From positions 1 to 33,938 of the forward strand of contig NZ_FONH01000031.1 of the NCBI RefSeq assembly GCF_900112865.1: DNA of 33,938 nucleotides, given 5' to 3'. This stretch comes from Dyella marensis (GTDB lineage Bacteria; Pseudomonadota; Gammaproteobacteria; Xanthomonadales; Rhodanobacteraceae). This document shows, in pieces, positions 3,024 to 30,503 of the stretch (positions are counted from its first letter, which is position 1; every line of letters starts with the position of its first letter). The notes beneath the pieces were generated by a model. It had not been told where the DNA came from. It did not search any database and saw nothing but the letters and a program-made list of their open reading frames with translations. A program made the translations under genes and the position numbers.

Positions 3024-3815
3024 ATGCATATCGATCTTTCCGGCAAGAACGCCCTGGTCACCGCTTCCACCGCCGGCATCGGCCTGGCCATCGCCACCGG
3101 CCTGGCCCAGGCGGGCGCCAATGTGGTGATCAACGGCCGCCATCCGGACACCGTGCAGAAGGTGGTCGAGCAGCTTCGCAAGCAATTGCATGGCGCCAAC
3201 GTGGAAGGTGCCGCGGCGGACCTGTCGACGGCCGCCGGCGCCAGGGCCCTGACCGCCGCCGTGCCCGGCGTCGACATCCTGGTCAACAACGCCGGCATCT
3301 TCGGCCTGAGGCCGTTCTTCGAGATCGACGACGCGGAATGGGAGCGCTACTTCCAGACCAATGTGATGTCCGGCGTACGCATGGCGCGGCATTACATGCG
3401 CGGCATGATCGAGCGCGGCTGGGGCCGCGTGGTGTTCATCTCGTCGGAGTCCGGCCTCAACATCCCGGTGGACATGGTGCAGTACGGCTTTACCAAGACC
3501 GCGCAGTTGTCGATCGCGCGCGGCCTGGCCAAAGTGGCGGCGGGCAGCGGCGTCACCGTCAACAGCGTGCTGCCGGGGCCGACGCTCTCGGACGGTTTCA
3601 AGGACATGGTGCGCGAGCAGGCCGAGCGCGAAGGCAAGAGCTACGAGCAGATCGGCGACGAATTCGTGCGCGCCCACCGCTCCAGCTCGATCATCCAGCG
3701 CATCGCCAGCACGGAAGAGGTAGCGAACATGGTGGTGTACACCTGTTCGGCGCAGGCATCGGCGACCACGGGCGCGTCGTTGCGGGTGGATGGTGGCGTC
3801 GTCGACACGATCTAG
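3024..3815 (+). CDS. SDR family NAD(P)-dependent oxidoreductase
   Basis: This 263-residue classical short-chain dehydrogenase has the nucleotide-binding motif TASTAGIG near the N-terminus, VNNAGIFG, the catalytic Ser in ISSESG and the YxxxK pair in YGFTK. The C-terminal TGASLRVDGG strand is typical. The chosen ATG has GAGAGG 7 nt upstream. The gene is divergent from frmR and shares its 133-bp control region, so formaldehyde control is possible but not shown. The substrate is unknown. Confidence 0.88.
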   Translation: MHIDLSGKNALVTASTAGIGLAIATGLAQAGANVVINGRHPDTVQKVVEQLRKQLHGANVEGAAADLSTAAGARALTAAVPGVDILVNNAGIFGLRPFFEIDDAEWERYFQTNVMSGVRMARHYMRGMIERGWGRVVFISSESGLNIPVDMVQYGFTKTAQLSIARGLAKVAAGSGVTVNSVLPGPTLSDGFKDMVREQAEREGKSYEQIGDEFVRAHRSSSIIQRIASTEEVANMVVYTCSAQASATTGASLRVDGGVVDTI

Positions 3816-27292: not shown

Positions 27293-28630
27293 ATGGCTGT
27301 GAGCAAGGCAGAGGCCAAGCGTTGCGTCGTGTGGTTCGGCCAACCCAGCGCCACCGAGCGGATGCGCCTGAATCGGGCCGGCTGGTACGTGCGCGTCGCC
27401 GACGCGGCCGCGGTCGGTGGCATCGGCACGCGCGGCGGCAATAGCGTGGTGGCAGTGGCGGATCTGCGCGACGCCGATGCCGCCGGCATGACCGCGATGG
27501 CGCTGGTGATGGACGCGCACCCGGGCCTGCCGTGGCTGGCCCTGATGCCGGCGGAGATGCCGGTAGGCGAACCGGCGCTGGGCGGGGTCATCGATACCTG
27601 CGTCGACGTGTTCACCGCGCCGGTCGATGTCGACCGGCTGCTCGATTCCCTGGGTTACCTCGGTGGCGACATCGTGGCCGTCGAGCCGGACGACTTGGGC
27701 ATAACCGGCCACAGCAAGGCCACGCGGGCGGTGATCGCCAGCGTGCGCAAGTACGCGCCGGTGGACCTGCCGGTGCTGATCACCGGCGAGACCGGCACCG
27801 GCAAGGAAGTGGCGGCGCGCGCGCTGCACAGCCTGTCGCGCCGCGCGGGCCGCCCGTTCGCGGCGATCAACTGCGGCGCGCTGCCGCCGAACCTGGTGCA
27901 GTCCGAGCTGTTCGGCCACGAGCGCGGCGCCTTCACCGGCGCCAATGCGCGGCGGCTGGGCCATTTCGAGACCGCCGCGGGCGGCACCGTCTTCCTCGAC
28001 GAAGTCGGCGACCTGCCGGCGGATGCGCAGACCAGCCTGCTGCGCTTTCTGCAGGAAGGCACGCTGGAGCGCGTGGGCAGCAGCCAGTCGATCACGCTCG
28101 ATGTGCGCGTGCTGGCGGCGACCCATGTCGACCTGGAGCGGGCGGTGGAGCAGGGGCGTTTTCGCGAGGACCTTTACTACCGCCTCAACGTGCTGCGCCT
28201 CCACATGCCCGCGCTGCGCGAGCGCGAGGACGACGTGGTGCTGCTGGCCCAGCATTTCCTCGATGCGTTCCGCGAACACCATGGCAGCCACGCGCGCACC
28301 TTCAGCAGCGCGGCGCGCCAGGCCATGCGCCACTTCGGCTGGCCGGGCAACGTGCGCGAGCTGCTCAACCGCGTGCAACGCGCGGCGGTGGTGGCCGAGG
28401 ATGCGCTGATCACGCCCGAAGACCTGGATCTGTCCCACATCTCGCAGATGCCCTCGGGCCGCGCGACCCTGGGCAGCGCTCGCGTGGCGGCAGAACGCGA
28501 GGCGGTGATCAGCTGCCTGCGCGAATGCCATTTCAATGTCAGCGAATGCGCGCGGCGGCTGAAGGTCTCGCGCGTCACCATCTATCGCCTGTGCAAGAAG
28601 CATGGGCTCGCGCTGGAACAATTGCGCTGA
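27293..28630 (+). CDS. Sigma-54-dependent enhancer-binding protein, VpsR-like
   Basis: The protein has 445 residues. Residues 10-125 form a receiver-like domain that resembles the N-domain of Vibrio VpsR (LPWLALMPAEM...DTCVDVFTAPVDVDRLLDSLGYLGG); Asp57 is at the likely phospho-acceptor place. The AAA+ domain follows, with Walker A GETGTGKE (165-172), the sigma-54 contact loop GAFTGA (212-217) and Walker B GTVFLDEVGDL (231-241). A Fis-type helix-turn-helix closes it (about 415-437). The intact GAFTGA argues for real sigma-54 activation; VpsR itself, as I recall, lacks it. No histidine kinase gene is adjacent, so the input may be a ligand such as cyclic di-GMP. A Clp site and a structured leader precede the gene, and a sigma-54 promoter lies just downstream on the other strand. 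Confidence 0.92.
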   Translation: MAVSKAEAKRCVVWFGQPSATERMRLNRAGWYVRVADAAAVGGIGTRGGNSVVAVADLRDADAAGMTAMALVMDAHPGLPWLALMPAEMPVGEPALGGVIDTCVDVFTAPVDVDRLLDSLGYLGGDIVAVEPDDLGITGHSKATRAVIASVRKYAPVDLPVLITGETGTGKEVAARALHSLSRRAGRPFAAINCGALPPNLVQSELFGHERGAFTGANARRLGHFETAAGGTVFLDEVGDLPADAQTSLLRFLQEGTLERVGSSQSITLDVRVLAATHVDLERAVEQGRFREDLYYRLNVLRLHMPALREREDDVVLLAQHFLDAFREHHGSHARTFSSAARQAMRHFGWPGNVRELLNRVQRAAVVAEDALITPEDLDLSHISQMPSGRATLGSARVAAEREAVISCLRECHFNVSECARRLKVSRVTIYRLCKKHGLALEQLR

Positions 28631-28635
28631 CTGAT

Positions 28636-28787
28636 GAGCCCCTCTCCCGCCGGCGACCCGAAGGTAGTCCCCGTGGGAGAGAGGGGTGGGGGTGAGGGTA
28701 CGCTCGGAGCGCAAGGGTGATGTGCACCGCTCCGCCCGAACCCTCATCCGCCTGCCGGCACCTTCTCCCAAGGGGAGAAGGATTCCA
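28636..28787. repeat. Intergenic repeat, fullest copy of the mosaic element
   Basis: Three modules are in order. Hairpin A has CCTCTCCC with GGGAGAGG around the GCGACCCGAAGG block. Module B is a long imperfect inverted repeat (GGTGAGGGT...GGAGCG and CGCTCC...ACCCTCATCC) around a loop with GTGATGTGCA. Hairpin C is CCTTCTCCC with GGGGAGAAGG. Other copies lie at 1-64, 113-199 and 3827-3905. It sits between the 3' ends of the regulator gene and the candidate small RNA. Confidence 0.85.
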
Positions 28788-28807
28788 TTGCGGAAACTGA
28801 GGGAGAT

Positions 28808-28932
28808 AAAAAGAGACGGAGGGCCCCCGACCTACAGGGGTCAGCCGGGGGCCTCCGTTGGTGCCCGGCCACAGGGATCGCCGGGTTACCGCCCGCGTCG
28901 CCATCGAGAGGGATGGCTTTGAACTGGGTCGA
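28808..28932 (-). ncRNA. Candidate sigma-54-dependent small RNA, about 125 nt
   Basis: From the start predicted by the sigma-54 promoter, the minus-strand RNA has a short single-stranded 5' end. Hairpin 1 is GCCAUC/GAUGGC with loop CCUCUC (28900-28917). Hairpin 2 is CCCGGC/GCCGGG with a 10-nt loop holding CCCU (28864-28885). A GC-rich terminator hairpin follows (28816-28858, one bulged base) and then UCUCUUUUU. All three loops are C/U-rich. No convincing ORF is present, and the next gene downstream is convergent, so this is not a leader. It resembles in style the C-rich-loop RNAs such as Xanthomonas sX13; homology is not claimed. The target is unknown. Confidence 0.65.
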
Positions 28933-28941
28933 TGATTCATA

Positions 28942-28958
28942 GGGCAAGTGGCGTGCCA
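28942..28958 (-). promoter_or_regulatory. Sigma-54 (-24/-12) promoter
   Basis: The minus strand reads TGGCACGCCACTTGC, matching the consensus TGGCACG-N4-TTGC at every fixed base, with GG and GC exactly 10 bp apart. The consensus base after TTGC is A/T, here C. Transcription should start near 28932. It points toward the terminator at 28808 and lies 0.3 kb beyond the end of a sigma-54 activator gene. Confidence 0.8.
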
Positions 28959-28986
28959 GCCTTCAGGCATGCCTGTCGCCCAGGAA

Positions 28987-28999
28987 ATTCAAGGGTTTG
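28987..28999. promoter_or_regulatory. IHF-like site
   Basis: ATTCAAGGGTTTG matches the IHF consensus WATCAA-N4-TTR at eight of nine informative bases. It lies at -55 to -67 from the predicted sigma-54 start, between promoter and the direct repeats, which is where IHF bends DNA at such promoters. Confidence 0.5.
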
Positions 29000-29017
29000 C
29001 GAAAACGCTCAGGGCGT

Positions 29018-29040
29018 GGGTGTAACGCCGATGTATCGCT
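29018..29040. promoter_or_regulatory. Candidate enhancer (UAS) copy 1
   Basis: The 23-bp unit holds GGGTGTAACGCCG then ATGTATCGCT, so TGTAWCGC occurs twice, 11 bp apart. It lies at -86 to -108 from the sigma-54 start. It matches copy 2 at 19 of 23 positions. It could also serve the forward promoter of the aminotransferase gene. Confidence 0.55.
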
Positions 29041-29098
29041 TGTCGCGCGGCGTCCCGCCGCGGAATGGCGTGCGGCAAGGCGCCATGTCCCGGCCCGG

Positions 29099-29121
29099 GG
29101 GTGTATCGCCGGCGTGTCGCT
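29099..29121. promoter_or_regulatory. Candidate enhancer (UAS) copy 2
   Basis: The unit holds GGGTGTATCGCCG then GCGTGTCGCT, 81 bp from copy 1 in the same orientation, at -167 to -189 from the sigma-54 start. Another exact TGTAACGCCG follows at 29121-29130, exactly 100 bp from the one in copy 1. The rest of the gap to 29267 shows only GC-rich inverted repeats and the ribosome site of the next gene. Confidence 0.55.
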
Positions 29122-29267
29122 GTAACGCCGCCGCGAACAACGCCGGCGCACGGCGCGTGGAAATGCGGGGGCGCTGGTTCTACGATGCGGAACGCCCTGC
29201 CGCCAGGCGGGCGTATCCCCACTCGCCATTCGATGGCCTTGCCCCGCGGCAACGCCAGGAGCCCCTC

Positions 29268-30503
29268 ATGCACGCGCAGGATTCATCGTCGTCCCTGATC
29301 GATCTCGGCAAGCGCTACTGGCTGCCGGTGTACCGACCCCGCGAGGTCGTACTGGATCACGGCAAGGGCGCGCGCGTGTGGGATACCGAAGGCCGTGACT
29401 ATGTGGACCTCGGCGCCGGCATCGCGGTGAACGCGCTCGGCCACCAGGATCCCGACCTGGTCGACGCGCTGGTGACCCAGGCCCGCAAGCTCTGGCACAG
29501 CAGCAACGTGTTCTACACCGAGCCGCCGCTGCACCTGGCCGAGGAGCTGGTGCAGGCCTCCGGCTTCGCCGAGCGCGTGTTCCTGTGCAATTCCGGCACC
29601 GAGGCGAACGAGGCGGCGATCAAGCTGGTGCGCAAGTGGGCCGCCTCCAAGGGGCGCGCGCCGGAGCAGCGGGTGATCCTGACCTTCCGCGGCTCTTTCC
29701 ATGGCCGCACCCTGGCCGCGGTGACCGCCACCGCGCAGCCGAAGTACCAGGAAAACTACGAGCCGCTGCCGGGCGGCTTCCGCTATCTCGATTTCAACGA
29801 CGTCGCCGGCCTGGAAGCGGCCTTTGCCCAGGGCGACGTGGCCGCGGTGATGCTTGAGCCGGTGCAGGGCGAAGGTGGCGTGCTGCCCGCCTCGCCCGCC
29901 TTCATCCGCCGCGCGCGCGAGCTGTGCGACACGCACGAGGCGCTGCTGGTGCTGGACGAGATCCAGTGCGGCATGGGTCGCACCGGCACCTTGTTCGCTC
30001 ACGCGCAGGACGGGGTGACGCCGGACATCGTGACCCTGGCCAAGGCGCTGGGCTGCGGTTTCCCGATCGGCGCGATGCTGGCCGGCCCGAAGGTGGCCGA
30101 GGTGATGCAGTACGGCGCGCACGGCACCACCTTCGGCGGCAATCCGATGGCCGCGGCGGTGGCGCGCGTGGCGCTGCGCAAGCTGGCCTCGGCCGAGCTG
30201 ATGGCCAATGTGGCGAAGCAGGCGCAGGCGCTGCGCGACGGCCTGGCGGCAATCGATGGCGAGCTGAAGCTGTTCGCCGAGGTGCGCGGCCGCGGCCTGA
30301 TGCTCGGTGCGGTGCTGGCGGAGGCGTACAAGGGCCGCGCCGGCGAGGTGCTCGATCACGCTGCCGCGCACGGCCTGCTGGTGCTGCAGGCCGGCCCGGA
30401 CGTGCTGCGCTTCGTGCCGCCGCTGAACATCACCGATGCGGACCTGGCCGAAGGCTTGGCGCGCCTGCGCGCGGCGCTGGCCGACTTCGTCGGCAAGCGT
30501 TGA
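29268..30503 (+). CDS. argD: Acetylornithine/succinylornithine-type aminotransferase
   Basis: This 411-residue, class III, pyridoxal-phosphate enzyme transfers the amino group between N-acetylornithine and 2-oxoglutarate in arginine synthesis or breakdown. Motifs are [30 protein letters not shown], the cofactor Asp in [14 protein letters not shown] and the Schiff-base Lys in [16 protein letters not shown]. The sequence closely resembles the Xanthomonas ArgD as I remember it; no other arg gene is adjacent, so a catabolic role is also possible. The ATG at 29268 has AGGAG 6 nt before it. A longer in-frame extension to 28932 runs through the regulatory region and is rejected. Confidence 0.88.

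Follow-up and report, generated by a model that had tools for sequence, protein, structure and literature searches.

The window, that is, the whole stretch of 33,938 nucleotides of Dyella marensis DNA that was analysed, carries a gene for a VpsR-like sigma-54 activator (27293-28630, plus strand) and the gene argD for acetylornithine transaminase (29268-30503, plus strand; NCBIfam PRK04612, 747.5 bits), and between the two a small transcription unit is predicted on the minus strand. The activator combines a VpsR domain, an AAA+ domain and a Fis-type helix-turn-helix (Pfam PF20161, PF00158 and PF02954), with both the Walker A motif (GETGTGKE) and the GAFTGA motif present. The predicted unit comprises two imperfect repeats, a -24/-12 promoter and a structured RNA ending at an intrinsic terminator. 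In all 70 related loci described below, argD lies upstream of the RNA and the vpsR-like gene downstream and convergent with it, which bears out two statements of an earlier note on this DNA, namely that a sigma-54-type promoter and a small structured RNA stand beside a VpsR-like activator and that the next gene is convergent. The gene argD is a conserved neighbour that is not regarded as belonging to the module. Between the vpsR stop codon and the terminator (28640-28800), the terminator-side part of the sequence is unalignable within the genus and may be a dispersed repeat.

Structure and promoter of the RNA element

The conserved RNA element spans 28818-28922 on the minus strand and scores 100.9 bits with the covariance model R1. 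Hairpin 1 (28900-28917), in which covariation is seen at all five modelled pairs, each changing on both sides in some loci, is followed by a single-stranded linker (28891-28899) that ends in GGGC, an invariant motif by column conservation. Next come hairpin 2 (28860-28890), supported by fold and covariation, and hairpin 3 (28817-28857), the terminator stem, supported by fold, covariation and column conservation and closed by a near-invariant CCCCUG loop; the T-rich tail of the predicted terminator occupies 28807-28816, all of these on the minus strand. The region 28932-28804 folds at -63.6 kcal/mol (z -3.32, with none of 200 shuffles equally good), and the two terminator-like predictions for the region, both of them minus-strand, stop at the T-run near 28807-28816. 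Of the traits of an Hfq-dependent small RNA, this terminator with its T-run is the one observed. The hairpins and the terminator had been recognised earlier, with two hairpins counted instead of three.

In an alignment of 70 sequences, 65 of them distinct, 98.3% of the cells in the three hairpins are paired and 17 of the 29 base pairs change on both sides, with a covariation score of 0.222 against 0.082 in shuffled and 0.018-0.059 in slid controls, figures that are favoured by the fitting of this alignment to the model. RNAalifold, run on an unfitted alignment of 18 sequences, recovered all three hairpins and showed two-sided changes at 11 of 29 pairs. Two unpaired blocks are near-invariant, the GGGC that precedes hairpin 2 and the CCCCUG loop closing hairpin 3; both are conserved at least as well as the stems, whereas the hairpin-2 loop is variable and the hairpin-1 loop is not conserved. 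A candidate pseudoknot between the linker GGG and the loop CCC has both of its sides nearly invariant.

An open reading frame of 131 amino acids (28575-28970, minus strand) overlaps the element, where the earlier note had seen no frame of quality. The spacing between the two conserved blocks, measured in 69 of the 70 loci, is nevertheless spread over the three frames (28/27/14), so the element is taken to be noncoding, in agreement with the sense of that statement, and a coding RNA was rejected. Membership of a known RNA family was rejected as well, since an Rfam search of the window gave no family at or above its gathering score; the 13 lax matches in 28600-29300 all lie far below theirs and include no CrcZ, Qrr or GlmY.

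The sigma-54 promoter TGGCACGCCACTTGC (28944-28958, minus strand) agrees with TGGCACG-N4-TTGC at all fixed bases, as originally read, and is the sole exact match found by a pattern search of the whole window. One perfect -24/-12 match by itself is weak evidence and not decisive: exact TGGCAY-N5-TTGC sites number 28 genome-wide against 12 for the reversed pattern used as a control, which makes comparison across relatives the needed test. In this comparison an exact TGGCAY-N5-TTGC lies upstream of the RNA, on the same strand, in 70 of 70 related loci, and it is because of this conservation that the promoter evidence is strong. The promoter stands 36 nt from the element in the window, and 25-450 nt from it across the 44 loci that lack the fap genes introduced below; its geometry places the putative transcription start at 28932 on the minus strand, about 12 nt past the -12 box. 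Transcription is something we infer from these features, and we hold with high confidence that the element is a genuine noncoding RNA transcribed by sigma-54 RNA polymerase.

Further upstream, sequence reading and a half-site scan delineate two imperfect repeats on the minus strand, a proximal one (29019-29041) with GTTACA (29021-29026) and GATACA (29032-29037), and a distal one (29100-29126) with GATACA (29102-29107) and GTTACA (29121-29126). They correspond to what had been described as two 23-bp direct repeats, which are indeed present, albeit as imperfect copies: by eye, 18 of 23 positions are identical between 29100-29122 and 29019-29041, and a repeat-finding tool reported just 15-nt direct-repeat copies of 87% identity. 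The IHF-like site of the earlier description does not generalise, occurring with at most one mismatch in 8 of 70 loci (1.4 expected), and was rejected as a general part of the module on that count.

Probable origin of the element within a Fap amyloid operon

A six-gene operon separates argD from vpsR in 26 of the 70 loci; tblastn found all six fap genes in it, in order, and the element there fills the space between fapC and fapD, genes 3 and 4 of fapABCDEF. NCBIfam matches at one locus (FapA 31 bits, FapB 83, FapC 111, FapD 243, FapE 71, FapF 390; FapC reaches 173 bits in a second locus) follow the Fap order, all of them below the equivalog cut-offs. The sigma-54 promoter of these fap-bearing loci stands upstream of fapA, 2.1-2.7 kb ahead of the element. 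Gene order and FapA-F family matches in the relatives liken this arrangement to the Fap operons described in parts of PMC3792158, PMC6173800 and PMC3684753; it differs in that the window genome itself has no close fap operon, its best FapF-like and FapD-like proteins, the only two searched for, showing 27% and 37% identity and both belonging to a separate second system. That the RNA element is a relic of the fap operon is in our view almost certain, and this identity, an intercistronic piece of an operon lacking in the genus, had previously been overlooked. Rhodanobacter-related Fap sequences are mentioned in a passage of PMC3792158, and fapABCDEF is reported as lowered in P. fluorescens mutated in rpoN in a part of PMC8202526. 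In the portions available of the three Fap papers, the word "terminator" is absent from PMC3792158, PMC6173800 and PMC3684753, "intergenic" from PMC3792158 and PMC3684753, and "hairpin" and "stem-loop" from PMC3684753. As a separate observation, the FapF match of one otherwise complete operon (G222, L120) contains an in-frame TAA; several FapF matches of genus g18 contain one TAG each, so the TAA of G222 may lie upstream of the true start.

The distribution of the element follows the family. A DNA search of 99 genomes matched it in 19, the own one counted, and R1 was built from 18 of these, the weakest (L020) being dropped as spurious. The covariance search across Rhodanobacteraceae that the earlier note had suggested was productive, R1 matching 70 of 233 family genomes under strict filters, in single copy each. 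Equally strict filters, with which weak matches are lost, gave 32 of 299 genomes at the order level (31 of the same family and one, G433, of another) and 1 of 369, the own one, at the class level. The element of G433 lies between fapC and fapD (40.6 bits), with no exact promoter found in the 14-kb stretch examined, and this arrangement in another family suggests that the fapC-fapD position is probably old. A pattern scan of named genomes produced 24 matches, and R1 was run on five of them (L163, L167, L172, L179 and L180); the Kallipyga match (L167), which covers model positions 21-61 only, was read as chance and set aside. A record labelled Candidatus Eremiobacteraeota (L172, CAJCJD010000153.1) carries the element and is probably a mislabelled metagenome bin, and G164:C153 is an argD/fap/vpsR locus of genus g18.

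The operon is gone from 44 of the 70 loci, including 6 of 6 in the window's genus (g1) and 20 of 20 in genus g14. Scraps of fapA, fapC, fapD or fapF surround an intact element in five loci (G155, G161, G163, G209 and G226). Read by eye, the G161 locus (L085:5235-5945) holds a short open reading frame with a FapC-like end, the intact element and the end of fapF, and looks as if two deletions had left the element untouched. The fap state needs 15 changes on a rapidly built tree of 97 loci, which has SH-aLRT support values and contains two long rows; 13 of 110 loci, those without an argD match, were left out of it, and at least 10 of the changes are forced by supported branches. Change counts cannot separate loss from regain, and loss is the favoured direction because of the fap scraps and the fixed neighbours.

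Where the fap genes are absent, the element stands out from its surroundings. Identity in fap-less g14 (n=20) is 0.87-1.00 in the element and 0.86 in the promoter against 0.08-0.30 in the next 60 nt downstream, and in fap-less g1 (n=6) it falls from 0.86-0.96 in the core of the element to 0.05-0.16 immediately past it, the g1 promoter forming no distinct peak in 15-nt bins (0.54-0.63 vs 0.36-0.67 around it). Two further stretches were seen in g14: a moderately conserved leader some 120 nt long that connects the promoter with the element (roughly 40-175 nt before the model start, e.g. L068; identity 0.64-0.79), possibly an extra structured domain, and a block with complementary ends in the element-vpsR gap (170-244 nt past the model start; identity 0.60-0.84), perhaps a dispersed hairpin repeat. 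The T content after hairpin 3 averages 4.1 of 10 in the 44 fap-less loci against 2.0 of 10 in the 26 fap-bearing ones (Mann-Whitney p 7e-8, a value that ignores kinship among loci), and runs of at least four T occur in 13 of 44 against 0 of 26. The T-run is thus a feature of only some fap-less loci, a pattern as expected if hairpin 3 turned into a terminator in some lineages.

The situation in relatives without a clear element is more varied. A VpsR-like match at E <= 1e-100 is present in 121 of 233 genomes, 51 of which have no R1 match, and 40 of these 51 were examined. Fifty-seven of 70 fap-less VpsR/argD loci retain the promoter, 44 with a clear RNA and 13 with a diverged or doubtful one, while in the other 13 promoter and RNA were lost together and vpsR was kept. 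In these last the best promoter site has 1-4 mismatches (a 1-mismatch promoter-like site in L138), and the argD-vpsR interval contains no half-site and no R1 match, from which the RNA appears to be dispensable in places. The earlier expectation that promoter and stems would be kept wherever close relatives keep the regulator therefore holds for 6 of 6 loci in the genus and fails for these 13 fap-less relatives. The 13 promoter keepers with a diverged RNA, 12 of genus g11 and G016 of genus g12, all score under 40 bits; 12 are matched at E up to 1 and L158 not at all, the weakest matches (L160 and L147, 16.7-16.9 bits) being near those at unrelated places in L139 and L151 (14.9-15.0 bits). Half-sites are sparse in these intervals (0-3 each), and a strict pattern found a strong terminator hairpin with a T-run in 10 of the 12 g11 loci. 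Eleven deeper fap operons (g13, g24 and g25) have an exact promoter, and a weak element just before fapD only in L144, L146 and L150; L143, L145 and L155 have no exact promoter.

Strong hairpins between cistrons often set unequal expression, and the element could be no more than a stabiliser of the mRNA or an insulator separating fapC from fapD, its fap-less remnants being decaying debris. Its exact placement after the gene for the fibre subunit and before that for the protease would suit such a role, as would its loss from 13 of the 70 fap-less loci. Debris would, however, hardly be expected to be better conserved than everything else in the interval, as the element is in fap-less g1 and g14, to hold the GGGC linker and the hairpin-3 loop at least as constant as the stems when the other two loops vary, or to be kept across many changes of fap state, and this explanation is regarded as unlikely. 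Retention despite apparently repeated fap loss suggests that the RNA has a function of its own.

The VpsR-like activator and its predicted targets

A count over the 250-nt stretches preceding the 70 promoters gave 199 half-sites (GTTACA, TGTAAC, GATACA and TGTATC), where mononucleotide shuffles lead one to expect 8.4, an enrichment of about 24-fold that is partly circular, as the words were chosen from the same 70 loci. They are concentrated almost entirely in two clusters, one 61-100 and the other 141-200 nt ahead of the -24 box, and 65 of the 70 loci have at least two. Two independent checks were made, on the own genome and on a second operon. In the own genome, 27 of the 28 exact promoters were scored (L197 is without a central site), and half-sites lie within 260 nt of only two: the RNA promoter, with four, and the promoter of a second Fap-like operon (G000:C24), with one.

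This second operon of the own genome, apparently for a Fap/Fil-like secreted fibre (L032:6003-10242, equal to G000:C24:172002-176241), has an exact -24/-12 promoter with a GTTACA half-site. It encodes a C39 peptidase nearest to FapD/FilB and a barrel protein nearest to FapF; its first two genes have no Pfam or NCBIfam match at E <= 0.01. Of 40 second-operon loci chosen, 26 have a promoter with half-sites, 23 of them with an exact TGGCAY-N5-TTGC and at least one half-site each, and three with TGGCGC, which were accepted only since half-sites are present. The 26 include 8 of the 11 examined genomes that have vpsR and lack both fap and the small RNA; the 14 loci without such a promoter include both VpsR-less genomes, 3 of 3 g11 genomes, and L220, whose upstream part lay outside the stretch analysed.

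These patterns make it highly likely that the adjacent VpsR-like protein is the activator of the RNA, presumably binding at the half-sites. The regulator must probably have other work as well, namely at the second Fap-like operon, and it probably controls a surface-fibre regulon of which the small RNA is one branch. Such a wider regulon would explain why vpsR outlasts the small RNA in some relatives. The VpsR-like protein is also a candidate activator for Fap amyloids, whose regulation is named as a matter to investigate in a part of a 2018 review (PMC6173800).

Proposed mode of action and known systems

The explanation that we consider likely as a whole is that of a trans-acting small RNA, driven by a VpsR-like protein and sigma-54 and exposed by loss of its parent operon. 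Bound at GTTACA/GATACA half-sites some 68-168 nt ahead of the -24 box, the VpsR-like protein would activate the sigma-54 promoter, from which a noncoding RNA of about 125 nt with three hairpins would be transcribed up to the intrinsic terminator. In the presumed ancestral layout the same promoter stood before fapABC-element-fapDEF, the element filling the fapC-fapD gap; several lineages, the window's genus among them, would then have lost the fap genes on both sides with promoter and element staying in place, and some would have gained the T-run by which hairpin 3 becomes a terminator. The C-rich CCCCUG loop may pair in trans with G-rich ribosome-binding sites, perhaps coordinating surface-fibre production.

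Since no gene follows the RNA on its strand before vpsR in fap-less loci, action in trans appears the most likely, and as no fap gene follows it there, cis control of fapD is excluded in those loci. Trans action through the C-rich loop, in the manner of the sX13 RNA of Xanthomonas, is the reading we prefer. That the RNA acts in trans by base pairing is moderately favoured; that the C-rich loop is the pairing seed is plausible and is put forward tentatively. The pairing of loop 1 with GAGAGG at 3024, proposed in the earlier note, was rejected, as the hairpin-1 loop is unconserved and the conserved unpaired blocks are GGGC and CCCCUG. A crude duplex-energy test gave a mean z of -0.8 for the leader of the second Fap-like operon (19 genomes, 4 of them with p <= 0.04) and of 0.0 for the vpsR start region (69 loci), and this simple prediction yielded no convincing target among the two.

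The latter value also bears on a possible action of the element on its neighbour, as a two-way terminator or by giving antisense RNA to the convergent vpsR-like gene. Convergence is seen at all 70 loci, and without a T-run read-through would yield RNA antisense to vpsR; yet R1 still matches the element in fap-bearing loci, where some 3 kb separate it from vpsR, both terminator-like predictions are on the strand of the small RNA, pairing with the vpsR start region is not unusual, and a terminator role would leave the kept sigma-54 promoter unexplained, so that such an action is quite improbable. A metabolite-sensing leader (riboswitch) for fapD, suggested by the place of the element before fapD and by its conserved unpaired blocks, is the least credible proposal and very improbable, neither fapD nor any other conserved gene following the element in fap-less loci and no Rfam family matching it.

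For the stand-alone small RNA gene we lean, if only slightly, towards a history in which fap was lost separately in several lineages and selection kept the promoter, the activator sites and the RNA, turning a trans-acting RNA of the fapC-fapD gap into a sigma-54 small RNA gene whose function is independent of the fibre and more durable. The origin of new bacterial small RNA genes is an open question. Here related species offer the intact operon, the half-decayed operon and the bare small RNA for comparison at a single locus, which makes that question directly testable. If the proposed history is true, the locus is a natural replicate experiment on the birth of small RNA genes, and a new surface-fibre regulator would stand beside the VpsR-controlled second Fap-like operon. 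A description of this RNA was not found among the matches listed for the open-licence literature on fap, VpsR, sigma-54, small RNAs and these genera, at the level of titles and abstract openings.

Several known systems invite comparison. Xanthomonas belongs to the same order as the window's organism. Its sX13 RNA has three stem-loops with C-rich apical loops and represses mRNAs with G-rich motifs, according to a part of PMC3771888. The present RNA also has three stems; its hairpin-3 loop is C-rich and near-invariant, its hairpin-2 loop variable and its hairpin-1 loop unconserved. It differs in location, sX13 lying at the polA locus and the RNA described here at the argD/vpsR/fap locus with a sigma-54 promoter. 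Among bEBP regulators of biofilm matrix genes, to which the VpsR-like protein can be likened, BerB of Burkholderia cenocepacia carries GAFTGA and acts together with RpoN and c-di-GMP, and VpsR of Vibrio cholerae functions without RpoN, as stated in a part of PMC5552954, in which the word "sRNA" is absent.

The pairs CbrB-CrcZ, LuxO-Qrr and GlrR-GlmY are established cases of an activator encoded beside a sigma-54-driven small RNA, and the earlier note had called the locus CrcZ/Qrr-like. The likeness holds for the layout, a sigma-54 activator gene adjoining the small RNA it is thought to drive, and goes no further: the activator here is VpsR-like and persists in 13 fap-less loci that lack the RNA, and the RNA, which has no Rfam match, would be a former part of an mRNA. 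In this last respect it resembles SdhX and CpxQ, mRNA-derived small RNAs treated in a part of PMC9438474, as the RNA element originally lay inside an operon transcript. It differs from them in its place between cistrons instead of at a 3' end, and in its fate: the parent transcripts of SdhX and CpxQ keep their genes, whereas here the operon has been lost and its promoter would drive the RNA directly.
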